Origin: an uncultured Lachnospiraceae bacterium
Lineage (GTDB): Bacteria > Bacillota > Clostridia > Lachnospirales > Lachnospiraceae
Length of the DNA stretch: 64,000 nt
Direction of reading: 5' to 3'
NCBI GenBank assembly: GCA_947564735.1
Contig: CANOEC010000014.1
Span: 30,244-94,243 of the forward strand
The notes beneath the pieces were generated by a model, which was not told the origin of the DNA, did not search any database, and saw nothing but the letters and a program-made list of their open reading frames with translations. Made by a program: the position numbers and the translations under genes. This document shows, piece by piece, positions 2,081 through 8,848 of this stretch; the first letter of the stretch is position 1, and every line of letters begins with the position of its first letter.

Positions 2081-2968
2081 TTAGCCCTTAACCGCTCCTG
2101 CCGTCATACCTTCGATAAAGTATCTCTGGAAGCAGAGGAATACGATAAATACAGGGATAATACCAAACATAGACCCGGCAATCAATACATCGTAGTTATT
2201 GCCATAAGGTGTAAGCAGGGTATTCAGACCAATGGGAAGTGTAAATTTCTCTGCACTTCTGAATACAAGCATCGGCCACAACACATTATTCCATGCGCCC
2301 ATTGCGCAGAGGATGGACATTGCCGCGAACGCCGGCTTGGTAATCGGGAGCATAATCTTAAAGCAGATACCATACTCCGTTGCGCCATCGATACGTCCCG
2401 CATCCAACAGTTCCTTGGGAAGACCCGTCATATACTGTCTGAAGAAGAATATGGTGGACGCCCCGCATAACCCCGGTAAGACAACGCCTGCCATCGTGTC
2501 GATGAGCTTGAAGCTGATCATTTCCTTATACAACGGAAGAATCAAAATCTCGAAAGGAACCATCATCGTTGCAATTACCAAGAAGAACAGGAAATTCTTC
2601 AATTTATAGTTGTACATGGTCAGACCGTAAGCGACTATGTAACAGATGAACAATGTACCTACGACGGAAATCGCCGTCAGAATCAAGCTGTTCTTATACC
2701 ACATGAAATACTTCTGACCGTCTACGTTATTGCCAAACAAATATTTGTAGTTCGCCAATGTCATGGAACTGAAATCGAAGTCCACGCTTAAGCCCCTACG
2801 AATCAGTTCCGTACCGGGTCTGAAAGATGCTATGAGTCCGGCAACCAGAGGAAACACAATAATAAATGATAATACTGCAAAAAATGCTGTCGCAATGATG
2901 GACAAAACAGTTCTTTTCGTCTTCATGCCCATTGTATCTTTTCCATTTACAGAGGATGTGCTCGCCAT
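2081..2968 (-). CDS. Carbohydrate ABC transporter permease (MalG type)
   Basis: This 295-residue inner-membrane protein has about six hydrophobic segments. The EAA-loop region is visible around LLDAGRIDGATEYGICFKIMLPITKPA, which contacts the ATPase; the C-terminus TAGAVKG is typical of MalG/LacG-type sugar permeases. A GGAGG site lies 9 bases before the ATG. It is one base downstream of its partner permease and belongs to an operon with a binding protein and arabinose-releasing hydrolases. No ATPase gene is nearby, so a shared multitask ATPase elsewhere in the genome is likely, as is usual for such importers in Firmicutes. Confidence 0.9.
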   Translation of the reverse strand: MASTSSVNGKDTMGMKTKRTVLSIIATAFFAVLSFIIVFPLVAGLIASFRPGTELIRRGLSVDFDFSSMTLANYKYLFGNNVDGQKYFMWYKNSLILTAISVVGTLFICYIVAYGLTMYNYKLKNFLFFLVIATMMVPFEILILPLYKEMISFKLIDTMAGVVLPGLCGASTIFFFRQYMTGLPKELLDAGRIDGATEYGICFKIMLPITKPAFAAMSILCAMGAWNNVLWPMLVFRSAEKFTLPIGLNTLLTPYGNNYDVLIAGSMFGIIPVFIVFLCFQRYFIEGMTAGAVKG

Positions 2969-2969
2969 A

Positions 2970-3869
2970 TTAATCTTCCTCCTTCTTAAATGTTCCGTTC
3001 AAAACAAGCTGAACTATATTAATAGCTAATGCAATTACAAGCAGTACTATACCGACCGCGCTGCCGTAGCCTAACTGGTTCTTGGTAATACCACGTTTGT
3101 ACAAATAACCTACGATGGTCAGACCGATATTGTTCGGCGAATCGGGACCTGCCCATAACATGTAAGCTTCCATAAACATTGCCAGACCTGCATATACACT
3201 GATTGTAAGTACATAGATAGTAGTCGGTTTTAATAAAGGGATGGTAACATATCTAAACTTCTGCCAAGCCGTCGCACCATCAATGTCGGCTGACTCATAT
3301 AATGCCGTATCAATCGCTTTCAGACCGGAAATGAAATAAAGCATATTGACACCGGTCCATCTCCAGCATGCAACAATTAAAAGCGCTGCAAGTCCGGTTG
3401 CTTTCATTTTCAGCCACTTAAAGGTTCCAAGTCCCAACGCCGCCGTGATCACGTTCATCTGACCTGTCTGATACTCAGAAAACATCAGTCTGAACAATGT
3501 ACCGGAGATAACTACGGAAGTCAGTGCCGGAACATACAGACACGCTTTCCAGAATCCTTTTGCCTTCACCAGTCTGGAATCCATCAGCACTGCAAAAAGC
3601 ATCGGGAACGGTATCAATAATACCAATGTCAGAATCATGTATTCAAAGCTGTTTAAAATTGCTGTGTGGAAAACGGTGTCCTTTGTTAATTTAACAAAGT
3701 TAGCAAATCCAACCCACTCCGTACCTGCGGGTTTGATATCTTGAAAACTCATTGTGATTGTGCTGCACAGCGGATAAATCCAGAATAATGCAAAACTTAA
3801 AATAAACGGAAGAACAAACACATAGGGTGCTGCCTTCTGTGAATAGAAAAATTTCTTAAATTTACTCAT
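2970..3869 (-). CDS. Carbohydrate ABC transporter permease (MalF type)
   Basis: This 299-residue polytopic permease begins MSKFKKFF, with AAGGAG about 10 bases upstream. An ATG 21 bases further upstream has no good site, so it was rejected. The EAA-type loop reads ESADIDGATAWQKFRYVTIP. The product forms the heterodimeric membrane pore with the MalG-type permease that follows. A strong hairpin separates it from the binding-protein gene upstream. Likely substrates are arabino- or xylo-oligosaccharides, inferred from the linked GH43 and GH51 enzymes. Confidence 0.9.
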   Translation of the reverse strand: MSKFKKFFYSQKAAPYVFVLPFILSFALFWIYPLCSTITMSFQDIKPAGTEWVGFANFVKLTKDTVFHTAILNSFEYMILTLVLLIPFPMLFAVLMDSRLVKAKGFWKACLYVPALTSVVISGTLFRLMFSEYQTGQMNVITAALGLGTFKWLKMKATGLAALLIVACWRWTGVNMLYFISGLKAIDTALYESADIDGATAWQKFRYVTIPLLKPTTIYVLTISVYAGLAMFMEAYMLWAGPDSPNNIGLTIVGYLYKRGITKNQLGYGSAVGIVLLVIALAINIVQLVLNGTFKKEED

Positions 3870-3904
3870 ACGCACACACTCCTTACCCAATACATTTTGA
3901 CAAA

Positions 3905-3945: not shown

Positions 3946-5427
3946 CTACTGCTCGAGGTCTACTACATCCTGAGCTGCCTGTAAAGCTTCGTCAACAGAA
4001 ACGCCGTTCTCGAGAACGTCATTCAATGTTACGTTACACATCTGTTCGTTGATTGTCGGGCTGATTCTTACAGTGTAAATCGTGCCGATATCATCTTTGA
4101 TGCTATAAAGAACATCGTAAGGATAATTTCTGAAGAACTGATTGTACTGGTTGTTGTCATCATGTGCAAATGCATCATCATTCCAAAGTACTGTGTTACA
4201 TACGTCGAATCCAAGGTTATCCCAGATTAACTGCTCACCTTCTTCGGACATCTTCGCCCAGCAAAGGAATTCAGAAGCAAGATCCTTGTCAACTGCCTGC
4301 TGTGTTACAACAGTACCTGTACCACCGATACCTACAGAACATTTCTGACCTGCTTCAAATACAGGACATTTCGCAATGTACCAGTTGCCTTTTTCTTCCG
4401 GCATATAGTTGGTGAAACGGCTCATGTACCACATAGCCTTCGGGAAGGATACGATATTGTGGTCAAGGATATTCTGGAAGCCAGCCTCTAAGTCAACGTG
4501 TCCGTCAGGAGAAACCTGTGCAAGCCCACTATTAACCCAGTTCTGCTGCATGGTCAGCATCTTCTTTACAGAATCAAGCTGTACGTTTGCTGTACCACCA
4601 AAACCACCTGTCCAGTCTTCGCCATGCTCAGCCATGGAAATCCATAACCAGTCACAGCCTGCCGTATCAACGGATGTCCAGTATTTGCCTTCCGGATTGC
4701 CGATTGCTGCAAGATATTTCTCGCCGAGTGCCTGATAGTCATCCCATGTTACAACTGCGTCAACTTCTTCCTGCGTAATGCCTGCCTCTTCAAGAACAGC
4801 CATGTTGTAGTACATAACAGTTGCGCCTACATGGTAAGGAATACCATAATAATGTCCGTCAGAACCTGAATATACATCCATTCTTGCCTGTACCATTGTG
4901 TCTAAGTAAGGCGCTGCCATATCATCCTGAGGAACAAGCCATGTGTCAAGACCCTCGATTACGTTCGGGAACTGACCAATCTCAACGTCACAGATATCAG
5001 GCGCACCTGTACCTGCTGTCAGAGATGTAAGTAACTTTGTATGCATGTCTGCATAAGGATATGTAGTACAGGTAATCTCGATTGTTCTGTCAGGATTCTG
5101 CTCATTCCATTTCTCAACCATGTTACCGTAATGCTGTCCGTGTAATTCTACGAATGTCCACATCTCCATATGCGTACCGTTGGGATCGCCAAAAGTACTT
5201 GTAGGAATCTCTTCCTCTGCTGCCGCATCGTCTGCCGGAGCCTCTTCCCCTGCATCTGCTGCGCCATCGTCTGCCGCGCCGTCGTCTGCCGGTGCTGCTG
5301 CGCCGTCATCTGTAGTTGCTGCTGCATCGCCGTCTGCTGCCGGAGCATCGCTGCCGCCGCCGCATCCTGCAAGTACTGAAGCAATCATTGTGACACTTAA
5401 CAAAGTCGCCAATACTTTCTTTTTCAT
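3946..5427 (-). CDS. Sugar ABC transporter substrate-binding lipoprotein
   Basis: This 493-residue lipoprotein has a basic start (MKKKVLATLL), a hydrophobic core and the lipobox LAGC, so it is anchored outside the membrane. A long Ala/Asp/Glu linker (about residues 25-75) separates the anchor from a family-1 type solute-binding domain. The start was chosen at 5427 because AGGAGG stands just before it and the signal peptide begins there; the open frame extends 14 codons further. It delivers sugar to the two permeases encoded downstream. The upstream region holds a promoter-like sequence with a nine-G spacer tract. Confidence 0.9.
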   Translation of the reverse strand: MKKKVLATLLSVTMIASVLAGCGGGSDAPAADGDAAATTDDGAAAPADDGAADDGAADAGEEAPADDAAAEEEIPTSTFGDPNGTHMEMWTFVELHGQHYGNMVEKWNEQNPDRTIEITCTTYPYADMHTKLLTSLTAGTGAPDICDVEIGQFPNVIEGLDTWLVPQDDMAAPYLDTMVQARMDVYSGSDGHYYGIPYHVGATVMYYNMAVLEEAGITQEEVDAVVTWDDYQALGEKYLAAIGNPEGKYWTSVDTAGCDWLWISMAEHGEDWTGGFGGTANVQLDSVKKMLTMQQNWVNSGLAQVSPDGHVDLEAGFQNILDHNIVSFPKAMWYMSRFTNYMPEEKGNWYIAKCPVFEAGQKCSVGIGGTGTVVTQQAVDKDLASEFLCWAKMSEEGEQLIWDNLGFDVCNTVLWNDDAFAHDDNNQYNQFFRNYPYDVLYSIKDDIGTIYTVRISPTINEQMCNVTLNDVLENGVSVDEALQAAQDVVDLEQ

Positions 5428-5640
5428 TCCTTTTCCTCCTTTTATAAATGAAAAAATAATGTTCGACATCCGGTCAAAATAGTAAAGTGACGAAAGGACA
5501 ACTTAACAATTAAACTAATTTAGCTAATTATATAAAGCTGTTACTTTGCCAAATAAATGTATGCAATTTTACTCTCGCTACCACCCAGCATTTAAGCAAC
5601 TTGCATATTTTTTCTTGTCTGACCGTTGTCTTATGTCCAT
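5428..5640 (-). other. AT-rich leader of the binding-protein operon
   Basis: This roughly 210-base stretch has no credible gene. It is AT-rich and contains AATTAGCTAAATTAG-like partial symmetry near 5515-5535 and a second TATAAT-like hexamer without a convincing -35. It ends in the AGGAGG site of the binding-protein gene. Regulator binding here is possible but not shown. Confidence 0.45.
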
Positions 5641-5670
5641 ATTGTACAATACCCCCCCCCAATACGTCAA
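5641..5670 (-). promoter_or_regulatory. Putative sigma-A promoter with nine-G tract in the spacer
   Basis: On the minus strand TTGACG (5665-5670) is followed by an 18-base spacer and TACAAT (5641-5646). The spacer contains nine G in a row (C at 5652-5660 on the plus strand). Loss of one G would give the optimal 17-base spacing, so slipped-strand changes could tune promoter strength. Transcription would start near 5634 and read into the binding-protein gene. Confidence 0.6.
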
Positions 5671-5735
5671 TACCTTTTTTGAAACATTTTATATCTTTTT
5701 AGACTGTTTTAGATTTTTCTAAACATTTTAGGTTG

Positions 5736-6011
5736 TCATAAAATATTTATGCTCTTCCATTTGTCATACGGGCATCCGTTTTTACGTATAGCGGCACGCA
5801 GCTCTACATAGCATCCGCACGCCCGGCACATACCATCCGCCAAAAGATCGCATTCTTTGCACAGAGAAAGCCGCTCTTCGTAAAGCGGCTTCTCAACTTT
5901 TATCTCATCATCCAAATTGGCGATATAGGTATGCAGATTCTCGAAATACGCGTCTTTATCCATGTCCCTTGTCAGACATTTGCGGCAGATGCGTTTTGTC
6001 TCTATCTCCAT
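5736..6011 (-). CDS. Small cysteine-rich DUF6171-like protein
   Basis: This 91-residue protein has four cysteine pairs, ICRKCL, LCKECD, MCRACGCY and NGCPYDKW, that look like zinc-ribbon or metal-binding sites. It resembles the DUF6171 family of Clostridia from memory. There is no signal peptide or membrane segment, so it is probably cytoplasmic. It lies between the GH51 gene and the importer genes on the same strand. Its role is unknown, and the neighbours do not define it. Confidence 0.7.
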   Translation of the reverse strand: MEIETKRICRKCLTRDMDKDAYFENLHTYIANLDDEIKVEKPLYEERLSLCKECDLLADGMCRACGCYVELRAAIRKNGCPYDKWKSINIL

Positions 6012-6108
6012 ATCTTACATACACGCCTTTCCTTATCCTCAAGTCAGCACTCCGCCGCAAGCATGGCTGTTTTCCACATTGCCCGCGGGAATAAACTGCT
6101 CCGCCCAA

Positions 6109-7632
6109 TTACTTCGTCTTGATGCGCAGGCTGATGACACTGCACGCCGGCGCCGTTAAGCAGATTGTGCCATCCTTCATCTCATAGGAATCAAATACCT
6201 GCTCTTTTACATTCTCCGGCTCGTCAAAAGTATTGTGCGCGTGCATCTCCTGATGCAGAATAGCCCCATCAATCTGTTCCGGAATACTCTCTGCCAGCGC
6301 AATCTCCACCGGTACATCCTCCGTCACCGACAGATTGCTGAGGGTTACATTGATATATCCCTGCGCATCTACCGATACGGATTCACTCAGAAGCGGCACC
6401 TGATACTCCTCTTCTTCGCCAATCATCTGATTGCCTTCAATATAGCTGTCCACAAGCTCTGCATCCTGATGATTCTTGTACATGCGGAATACATAGTAGG
6501 TCGGTGTGAGAATCATCTTCGCACCTTCGGTCAGAATCACGGCCTGCAGCACATTGACCATCTGTGCGATACATGCCATTTTCACGCGGTCGCAGTGCTT
6601 ATTGAAAATATTCAGTGTCAGACCGGCAACAAGCGCATCGCGCATGGTGTTCTGCTGGTATAAGAAGCCCGGATTGGTTCCCGGTTCCACCGTAAACCAG
6701 CAGCCCCATTCATCGACAATCATGCCAATCTTTTTATCCGGGTCATACTGATCCATGATTGCACCATGACGGTTAATCAGCTCTTCCATATAGGCAGCCT
6801 TTGCCATCGTCTTATACCATGTTTTCTCATCAAATTCAGTAGCGCTTCCCTTCACCTTCCATCCTTCCGGGTGCACATAGTAGTGCAGTGACAGTCCGTC
6901 CATGAATCCACCCGGACCAAACTCAATATCCGGCTGCGGCTGTGCGAAACAGGTCTTCAAAACGCCCTCTGTCCAGAAATAATCTGCCACGTTCGCCCCA
7001 CAACATATCTTCTGAATTGGTGCGGTATGGTCGTAATGTCTGACATAAGTCTGGTATCTTCTGTAAAGATTCGCATAATATTCCGGCGTCATATTGCCGC
7101 CGCATCCCCAGTTCTCATTGCCAACCCCGAAATAGTCAATCTTCCACGGCTTCTCATGTCCGTTTTTCTTTCTTAAATCCGCCATCGGTGAAACACCGTT
7201 AAACGTGATGTATTCCACCCACTCGCTCATCTCCTGCACGGTGCCGCTGCCCACATTGCCATTGACATAGGTTTTACAGCCCAACTGCTCGCACAGTTCA
7301 AAAAATTCATGCGTTCCGAAGCTGTTATCTTCCACCACGCCGCCCCAGTGCGTATTAATCATTTTCTTGCGGTTTTCCTTCGGTCCGATGCCGTCCATCC
7401 AGTGATACTCATCCGCAAAACAACCGCCGGGCCAGCGGAGTACCGGAATCTTCATGTCTTTTAACGCATCAACCACATCTTTTCGCATACCGTTCACATT
7501 AGGAATCTCAGAATCCTCCCCCACATACAGCCCTTCATAAATACATCTCCCAAGATGTTCCGAGAAATGACCGTATATCTCAGCGTTGATGTGTCCCTTC
7601 TTGTTTTTCTCATTAATAAATAATTTCGCCAT
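6109..7632 (-). CDS. abfA: Alpha-L-arabinofuranosidase, GH51
   Basis: This 507-residue enzyme removes terminal arabinofuranose from arabinan or arabinoxylan fragments. It has the usual length for GH51. The acid/base glutamate is in [11 protein letters not shown] (about residue 173) and the nucleophile glutamate in VDEWGCW (about residue 293). The N-terminal [20 protein letters not shown] and the GHFSEHLG motif also fit. No signal peptide is present, so it acts in the cytoplasm on imported oligosaccharides. It follows the GH43 gene and precedes the importer on the same strand. Confidence 0.93.
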
Positions 7633-7723: not shown

Positions 7724-8674
7724 TTAGAAATGAAAATCAGGTCTGCCATCCTTCCAGCCAAATTTCATCAGCATTGCATGACGATTCGGATTGTAGAGCG
7801 GGTCGCCGACAATCTCCGTCTCTGTCCTCGCATGATAAACCAGAATATCATTGCCCTCTTCGTCCACGGTAAAGCTGTTGTGTCCCGGACCGTATGTTCC
7901 AACGGACGCATCCGACTGAAGCACCGGGTATCTCTCTTTACGCCATGACAAAGGATCCAAAAGATCGGCATCTTCATCCGCCGTCAACATTCCCATACAA
8001 TACGCTACTCCGGTCTCCGAAGCAGAATATGTCATGAAAATCTTACCGTTTCGCTTGAGTACGGCGGGACCCTCATTCACCCAGAATCCTACCCGCTCCC
8101 AGTCATAGTCCGGCGTCGTCAGGAGCACCTGCACTGTCTTCAACTGATACGGCGTCTCCAGTTCACCGATATAGAGATTGGAAACCTGTTTCCCTACGCC
8201 AACCTTCTCTGCCCAGATATAGTACCACCTGCCCTTGTTCTCAAACACGGTGGCATCCAGCGAAAACCCTTCAAAAGAAAATTCATCTTCCGGCGCCCTT
8301 CTCATCTTGCCTTTCTCCACCCATGTACCGGTCATCGGGTCATCATCCTTACACTCAAGTACATAAGGTCTGATTGCCCATACATCATCCTTGTCGCCGC
8401 CCGCATAGTATATGTACCATGCCCCGTCTATATAGTGCAATTCCGGCGCCCAGATATGACAGCTCATAATACCAGATTCATGTTTGTGCCATATCTCGAC
8501 TTCTTCGGCGTCTGCAAGCCCTGCAAGCGTATCAGACTTGCGGAGCACAATTCCGTCATAGGCAGGCACGGAGGCGGTAAAATAATAACTCCCGTCCGAG
8601 TGTCTGTATACATACGGATCTGCTCTCTGCATAATCCATGGCTTGTTGTAAATCAGCTCTTTTCCATTACCCAT
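7724..8674 (-). CDS. GH43 glycosidase, probably exo-arabinofuranosidase
   Basis: This 316-residue five-bladed beta-propeller enzyme has the GH43 catalytic triad: general base Asp in QRADPYVYR, pKa-modulating Asp in FSLDATVFE and general acid Glu in VNEGPAV. The RADPYV and YYFTASVPAYD segments resemble GH43 subfamily 26 exo-alpha-1,5-arabinofuranosidases; the subfamily is inferred. No signal peptide is present, so it is cytoplasmic. The ATG at 8674 is preferred over a GTG three codons upstream because GGGAG then lies about 10 bases away. It is the first gene of the arabinose-polymer operon. Confidence 0.88.
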   Translation of the reverse strand: MGNGKELIYNKPWIMQRADPYVYRHSDGSYYFTASVPAYDGIVLRKSDTLAGLADAEEVEIWHKHESGIMSCHIWAPELHYIDGAWYIYYAGGDKDDVWAIRPYVLECKDDDPMTGTWVEKGKMRRAPEDEFSFEGFSLDATVFENKGRWYYIWAEKVGVGKQVSNLYIGELETPYQLKTVQVLLTTPDYDWERVGFWVNEGPAVLKRNGKIFMTYSASETGVAYCMGMLTADEDADLLDPLSWRKERYPVLQSDASVGTYGPGHNSFTVDEEGNDILVYHARTETEIVGDPLYNPNRHAMLMKFGWKDGRPDFHF

Positions 8675-8848
8675 TTTGTCCACACTCCCATATTTTTTAA
8701 TATTTATAAAATATTTTAATCATAACTAAATTATATTTGATTATCACTGATAAAGCAACCTGTATTTTTCATTTTAAACAAAGTTATCCTATTTTTCATC
8801 TAAAATATAGGCACTTTTACGGTTTTACCGTTTGTATAGCTTTGTCCG

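Follow-up and report, generated by a model that had tools for sequence, protein, structure and literature searches.

Promoters with a run of G between the -35 and -10 hexamers occur far above controls in a Lachnospiraceae genus, where they are strand-specific, and they mostly drive genes for secreted proteins, lipoproteins and surface proteins. The window, i.e. the whole 64-kb stretch of DNA that was analysed, harbors one such promoter upstream of a sugar-type importer operon; the wider promoter class is a more important result than the importer locus alone. We consider it reasonably probable that a slippage-prone G run in the spacer of a sigma-A type promoter tunes importer transcription in sub-populations of cells, and that this promoter is one of a Lachnospiraceae class of such promoters.

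The importer promoter and its operon

Read directly from the sequence, the minus strand from 5670 to 5641 is TTGACG-TATT-GGGGGGGGG-TATTG-TACAAT. In brief, the -35 hexamer TTGACG (5665..5670, minus strand), kept as TTGACG or TTGACA in orthologues, is followed by an 18 bp spacer (5664-5647) and by the -10 hexamer TACAAT (5641..5646, minus strand), where TATTGTACAATATG is conserved in the main clade. The spacer begins with TATT (5664-5661), continues with a tract of nine G on the non-template strand (5652..5660, minus strand; runs also occur in orthologues) and ends with TATTG (5651-5647) next to the -10. This confirms the layout given in an earlier reading of the DNA, made without database searches (the sequence-only reading): TTGACG and TACAAT 18 bases apart on the minus strand, with nine G in the spacer. 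From the position of the -10, transcription is predicted to start at approximately 5634.

The tract at 5660-5652 is the only run of at least seven G on either strand of the 64-kb window. All three G7 matches in the window lie within it; shuffled sequences give a mean of 7.00. Promoter-like consensus sites numbered 40 in 12 kb, vs 23.0 expected, and the tract promoter is among three with 10/12 matches, so as a bare consensus match it does not stand out. Two observations lift it above chance: orthologues keep both hexamers at the same place, and in related genomes the arrangement far exceeds its controls. Judged by this conservation, the site is a genuine conserved promoter with the tract inside its spacer. 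As part of the explanation favored above, and with the same degree of confidence, we take it to be a vegetative (sigma-A type) promoter. No Rfam element at gathering score was found in 5300-6100, and no inverted repeat pairs of at least 12 bases were found around the promoter (5350-6050). The importer leader contains TGCAAGTTGCTTAA at 5605-5592 on the minus strand, with a GCAA-G-TTGC inverted repeat that is partly conserved in the main clade and is a candidate operator.

All genes discussed here are on the minus strand. The first gene after the promoter (3946..5427) encodes a lipoprotein sugar-type solute-binding protein (PF01547, 2.4e-21; sugar-binding PDB relatives). Its ATG at 5427, located 213 bases past the -10, opens a protein starting MKKK; a longer ORF starts at 5469. 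The Shine-Dalgarno sequence AGGAGG is located at 5435..5440 and reads AAGGAGG in most aligned relatives. Two ABC permeases are encoded at 2970..3890 and 2081..2968 (both PF00528). Just upstream of the promoter is a DUF6171 gene (5736..6011, PF19668). Its neighbors upstream encode an alpha-L-arabinofuranosidase (6109..7632; PF06964, 1.2e-54), which we take to be a GH51 enzyme, and a GH43 glycosidase (7724..8683, PF04616). The sequence-only reading named the operon an arabinose-oligosaccharide importer. The Pfam matches bear out a sugar-type solute-binding protein with two permeases, but arabino-oligosaccharide as the imported substrate is a guess from the neighboring genes, because the closest PDB structures are of general sugar binders, with the arabino-oligosaccharide binder 6rjy eighth among nine matches.

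Orthologous promoters

A search of the 78 genomes of the genus for proteins at least 75% identical to the solute-binding protein gave 24 relatives in addition to the window's own copy. The upstream alignment comprises 23 rows including the window; L016 and L027 (too little upstream sequence) and L034 and L035 (at most 38% identity) were left out. The main clade conserves both hexamers and a stretch after the -10, and eight mid-spacer bases vary freely. Tract-free orthologues from the same genus have a spacer of exactly 17 in 18 of 18 cases.

Runs of at least seven G are present in five of the 23 aligned rows. The window (G000) has G9 and a spacer of 18, and its closest relative (G055) has G9 and a spacer of 17. 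In G071, G9 directly follows the -35 and the spacer is 17. G066 has G7 and a spacer of 15; its sisters G065, G070 and G074 have 17. The fifth row, G058 (L011), has G7 in poor sequence with apparent errors beside the tract; as its -35 cannot be read so close to the contig end, it does not enter the spacing comparison. The spacer differs from 17 in two of the four readable tract promoters vs none of the 18 tract-free promoters (Fisher p 0.026, which is indicative since the rows are related). Among the aligned orthologues, departure from a 17-bp spacer is confined to tract-bearing rows.

The spacers of the window and G055 differ (18 vs 17) because TATT in the one corresponds to TTT in the other beside the tract. 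Both tracts are G9, and no change in tract length at the importer promoter was seen between these two nearest clean relatives. On the protein tree the label "tract" requires at least three changes, possibly one gain and two losses. The importer promoter was examined at 79 of 80 loci, L099 being omitted as it comes without upstream sequence. Beyond G055, G058, G071 and G066, no further tracts were found among these 79 loci, 16 of which are without a promoter by the pattern used. Kineothrix alysoides (L154) keeps the -35/17/-10 arrangement.

Comparison of the tract across relatives, as proposed in the sequence-only reading, gave a divided answer: the tract is not invariant (G9, G9, G7 and G7, and none in 18 orthologues), but the nearest relative has the same G9. 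The claim of a phase-variable sugar importer stands in part. The promoter is real, the tract is in its spacer and the spacing deviates in tract-bearing orthologues only; against this, the window and G055 both have G9. Phase variation at the importer promoter itself is putative.

G-tract promoters in the genus, family and phylum

The genus was searched with the pattern TTGAC-N1-10-G7-N2-10-TANNAT, and the same pattern backwards or with C for G served as controls. We found 77 raw matches (70 distinct sites in 31 of the 78 genomes) vs three backwards. The C-run control, which covers the genus alone, gave four matches vs the 77 raw matches for G. A similar pattern with G8 was used for the family and the phylum. 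The family yielded 82 raw matches in 51 of 397 genomes vs one backwards. Without three own-genus genomes, which account for 13 matches, there are 69 raw matches in 48 genomes; 346 of the 397 family genomes have no match. In the phylum, 29 raw matches in 24 of 398 genomes were found vs five backwards, and outside the family 27 raw matches in 23 of 393 genomes vs five backwards.

Counted by genomes, prevalence is 40% in the genus, 13% in the family and 6% in the phylum, and it is in the phylum that matches exceed the backwards control the least. The genus is thus where the class is richest, and elsewhere it is scattered. It is neither exclusive nor universal, given the excess outside the family and the family genomes without a match. 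The sequence-only reading took promoter-spacer phase variation to be unusual for a glycan importer of a gut Firmicute; the tract promoter itself is no isolated case, being one of many such promoters in genus and family. In another family of the phylum (f24), genomes G632, G657, G819 and G858 carry a TTGACAA-G8-T...TACAAT arrangement that recurs at three sites, along with a near variant; this may be a separate case.

The genus search and a further 66 sites from the family search make up the 136 sites analysed below. Eleven of these have a possible start codon (of an ORF of at least 80 codons) within 15 bases of the run, and a few may therefore be of the ribosome-binding kind. The shorter motif G9TANNAT (161 matches vs four backwards in 78 genomes) was rejected as a promoter count, being a mixture of site kinds. 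Among 18 fetched G9TANNAT sites without a TTGAC -35, three are flagellin ribosome-binding sites, five have a -35 of at least 4/6 matches at 14-22 bp and eight were flagged export-like. Three G9TANNAT matches in G070 are coding repeats. The 18 extra sites enter no statistic except the comparison of run lengths between site pairs.

Genes downstream of the tract promoters

Export-like proteins were called with a home-made hydropathy rule (positive charge and a hydrophobic stretch near the start), not a trained predictor. A first downstream ORF was found for 129 of the 136 tract sites and for 45 of 47 tract-free control promoters. By this rule, 88 of the 129 ORFs are export-like (51/66 for the genus sites and 37/63 for the family sites) vs eight of 45 for the tract-free promoters (p 3.6e-9). 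With each protein family counted once, the numbers are 41/71 vs 8/39 (p 2.5e-4).

A Pfam scan of the 129 ORFs, each cut to no more than its first 300 residues, identified SBP_bac_1 in eight, DUF4854 in seven, BspA-type leucine-rich repeats in six and ABC-transporter ATPases in four. Since SBP_bac_1 recurs, sugar-type importers are regular members of the class, not an oddity of the window. At locus L349 (G045:C13), three tandem genes for secreted proteins each have their own TTGCG...G10/G11-TATAAT promoter, with runs of G11, G10 and G11.

Run length and spacer geometry

Across the 136 sites, runs of 7, 8, 9, 10, 11 and 13 G occur 3, 29, 57, 33, 13 and 1 times, respectively, with a peak at 9-10; the search pattern for the genus admits no run below 7, and that for the family none below 8. 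By reasoning, random runs should fall steeply with length, unlike this peak. The run abuts the -10 in 81 of the 136 sites, and the spacers of these abutting runs have a mode of 19 (33/81). It should be noted that the search patterns cap spacer length, and longer spacers may therefore be missed.

The controls are 47 promoters of the form TTGACA-TATAAT without a tract, taken from ten of these genomes in a search that allowed spacers of 17-19: 27 from a locus list (L319 was dropped as too near a contig start) and 20 from four genomes. A spacer of 17 is found in 38 of the 47 controls vs 8 of 57 sites with an abutting run when both are restricted to spacers of 17-19. At the importer promoter, 8 G would give a spacer of 17 bp, 9 G one of 18 and 10 G one of 19. 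The sequence-only reading took the 17 bp reached by losing one G as optimal, but 17 as the optimum is doubtful with a G run in the spacer, given the mode of 19 for abutting runs. A G run tends towards A-form and takes up less length per base pair. Such a geometry could raise the optimal spacing, and the mode of 19 points that way. Because this mode is not the classical optimum, the effect of tract length could go in either direction.

The geometry also bears on another explanation, namely that the G run belongs to the fixed structure of the promoter. Here, the non-template G next to the -10 and an A-like geometry would set promoter strength or the response to a regulator, and selection would hold the length near 9-10, with no switch. 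Both the abutting runs and the shift of the mode from 17 to 19 speak for it. So does the bias for G over C in the genus, which slippage alone does not need. This non-template preference suggests a second role for the run, perhaps as a favorable base next to the -10. Against a fixed part stand the 18 orthologous promoters without any run, the bias towards surface genes, which is typical of phase-variable sets, and the flagellin genes described below, which have runs of G7 to G10 at the ribosome-binding position instead. The evidence from run lengths is split, as set out in the next section. On balance we regard a fixed promoter part as fairly unlikely.

Variation in tract length

The strongest evidence that run length changes comes from outside the importer locus. 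Two loci from genomes classed as different species, L377 (G001) and L378 (G005), align over 3,010 bp with no mismatches and one gap. The gap is the run itself, G10 vs G11. The run precedes a CpsB/CapC capsule-synthesis gene (PF19567, 5e-93), in a promoter without a clear -35 (TTGTCC at 21/22 bp). This is the only near-identical pair from different genomes that the comparison revealed (at least 97% identity over at least 300 bp), and the indel may stem from misassembly of a homopolymer.

Fifteen pairs of sites have similar flanks; run length differs in seven of these pairs, two of which are only weakly similar, and is equal in eight. Differing runs in related promoters are G13/G11, G11/G9, G9/G11, G8/G7 and G11/G10, and seven homologous lipoprotein promoters all have G9. 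The equal pairs and the seven G9 promoters fit a fixed promoter part; the seven differing pairs and the otherwise identical G001/G005 pair do not. MutS is present in the genome of the window, so slippage should be damped and would have to work against mismatch repair.

Mutational drift would let G runs grow by slippage in spacers free of sequence demands, where they are tolerated without function. The freely varying middle eight spacer bases of the importer promoter agree with this, but drift predicts neither the strand bias nor the surface-gene bias nor the repeated appearance of a tract in one promoter across separate clades, and we find it improbable. A sequencing or assembly artefact in the tracts or their surroundings is very unlikely: G058 has its apparent errors close to a contig end and a few contigs have their first bases in or beside a tract, but the runs occur with consistent flanks in many assemblies, including contigs of 3.8 and 3.2 Mb (G180:C1 and G456:C1).

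The contigs of L388 (G005:C56:1), G067:C93:1 and L380 (G005:C25:11) begin inside a G run or within some ten bases of one, which would fit breaks of the assembly at such runs. We considered whether an enrichment of contig ends close to tracts could indicate mixed lengths, and dropped the idea, as several tract-free promoters are also near contig starts.

G runs at ribosome-binding positions

Five loci (L391, L392, L393, L394 and L396) have the layout ATTTCGTC-Gn-TAAA-ATG, where n is 10, 7, 10, 10 and 10, respectively. The G run occupies the expected Shine-Dalgarno place of flagellin genes; Flagellin_N was confirmed for L391, L392 and L396. L397 has the ATTTCGTC layout with 8 G plus a C, at a contig end where the gene is not readable. 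These runs are therefore not tied to promoter geometry, and they are possible translational switches. In the window's own genome, at L039 (G000:C1:196918-196926), an ORF of 291 aa encoding a methyltransferase domain (PF13578) has G9 two bases upstream of its ATG, a layout like the ribosome-binding layout of the flagellin genes.

Proposed mechanism

We suggest that replication slippage adds or removes single Gs in the run. Each G gained or lost would shift the -35 relative to the -10 by one base pair, altering both distance and helical phase. Such a change in spacing would tune, rather than simply switch, transcription of the solute-binding protein and the permeases in sub-populations. We infer that slippage at the importer locus occurs at a useful rate, that it affects expression and that a mixed population is selected for. 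Phase variation by tract length is probably the correct type of interpretation; for the importer locus it is putative.

Members of the class are probably genetic dimmer switches. More tentatively, in a proposal that may well prove wrong, we speculate that many Lachnospiraceae carry such analogue switches in the form of non-template G-run promoters (-35, approximately nine bases, G9-11, -10), whose best spacing is moved to approximately 19 bp by the smaller length per base pair of the G run. Along with the G runs at the flagellin ribosome-binding position, they would make clonal cells differ in their surface proteins and sugar importers.

Comparison with known phase-variable systems

Homopolymer promoter switches are textbook cases from pathogens. 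In 1995, van der Ende reportedly described a homopolymer in the -35/-10 spacer of porA, the length of which sets promoter spacing and expression. More recent papers relate that a short promoter run locks porA of Neisseria meningitidis in a high expression state (PMC11633189), and that expression of the nutrient-uptake gene fetA of Neisseria gonorrhoeae changes with the length of a poly-C tract between the -10 and -35 (PMC5320596).

The importer promoter resembles porA in having a homopolymer between the -35 and -10; with G9 in a predicted conserved promoter, the run falls in the range of approximately eight or more bases of the porA/fetA type. Spacers likewise vary while the hexamers stay (18, 17, 17 and 15), yet the 18/17 change lies outside the tract. 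As for surface or nutrient-uptake genes, the importer locus has a lipoprotein solute-binding protein, and the class has its 88 of 129 export-like ORFs. Like fetA, the importer has a nutrient-uptake gene downstream of the spacer tract. The fetA tract consists of C, however, and C runs are rare in the genus studied here. Further, porA encodes an outer-membrane porin of a Gram-negative pathogen, whereas we find a nutrient-importer operon in a Gram-positive gut commensal. Another difference is that such promoters are numerous in one family, and that in most of them the run abuts the -10 and the spacer is close to 19. The class is best read as a porA/fetA-like set of predicted spacer-length promoters, scattered in Lachnospiraceae and richest in its own genus.

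Gut bacteria are also described as having invertible promoters, including those of Bacteroides glycan-utilisation genes, which give phase variation of nutrient acquisition (2025 review, PMC11868660). These rely on DNA inversion by recombinases, whereas the importer site has a homopolymer and, in 5350-6050, no inverted pair of at least 12 bases. Neither Firmicutes nor Lachnospir appears in the main text of that review. A search of the open-access literature, with subscription journals and most preprints outside its scope, found no paper on homopolymer promoter switches in Lachnospiraceae. Within this literature, the G-run promoter class in Lachnospiraceae is apparently undescribed.

In the literature searched, phase variation reported for gut commensals is mostly DNA inversion. 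Lachnospiraceae are a dominant family of the mammalian gut. If our reading is true, clonal populations of major gut commensals would be mixed for surface proteins, flagellin and sugar uptake, and this could explain strain behavior that gene content does not.
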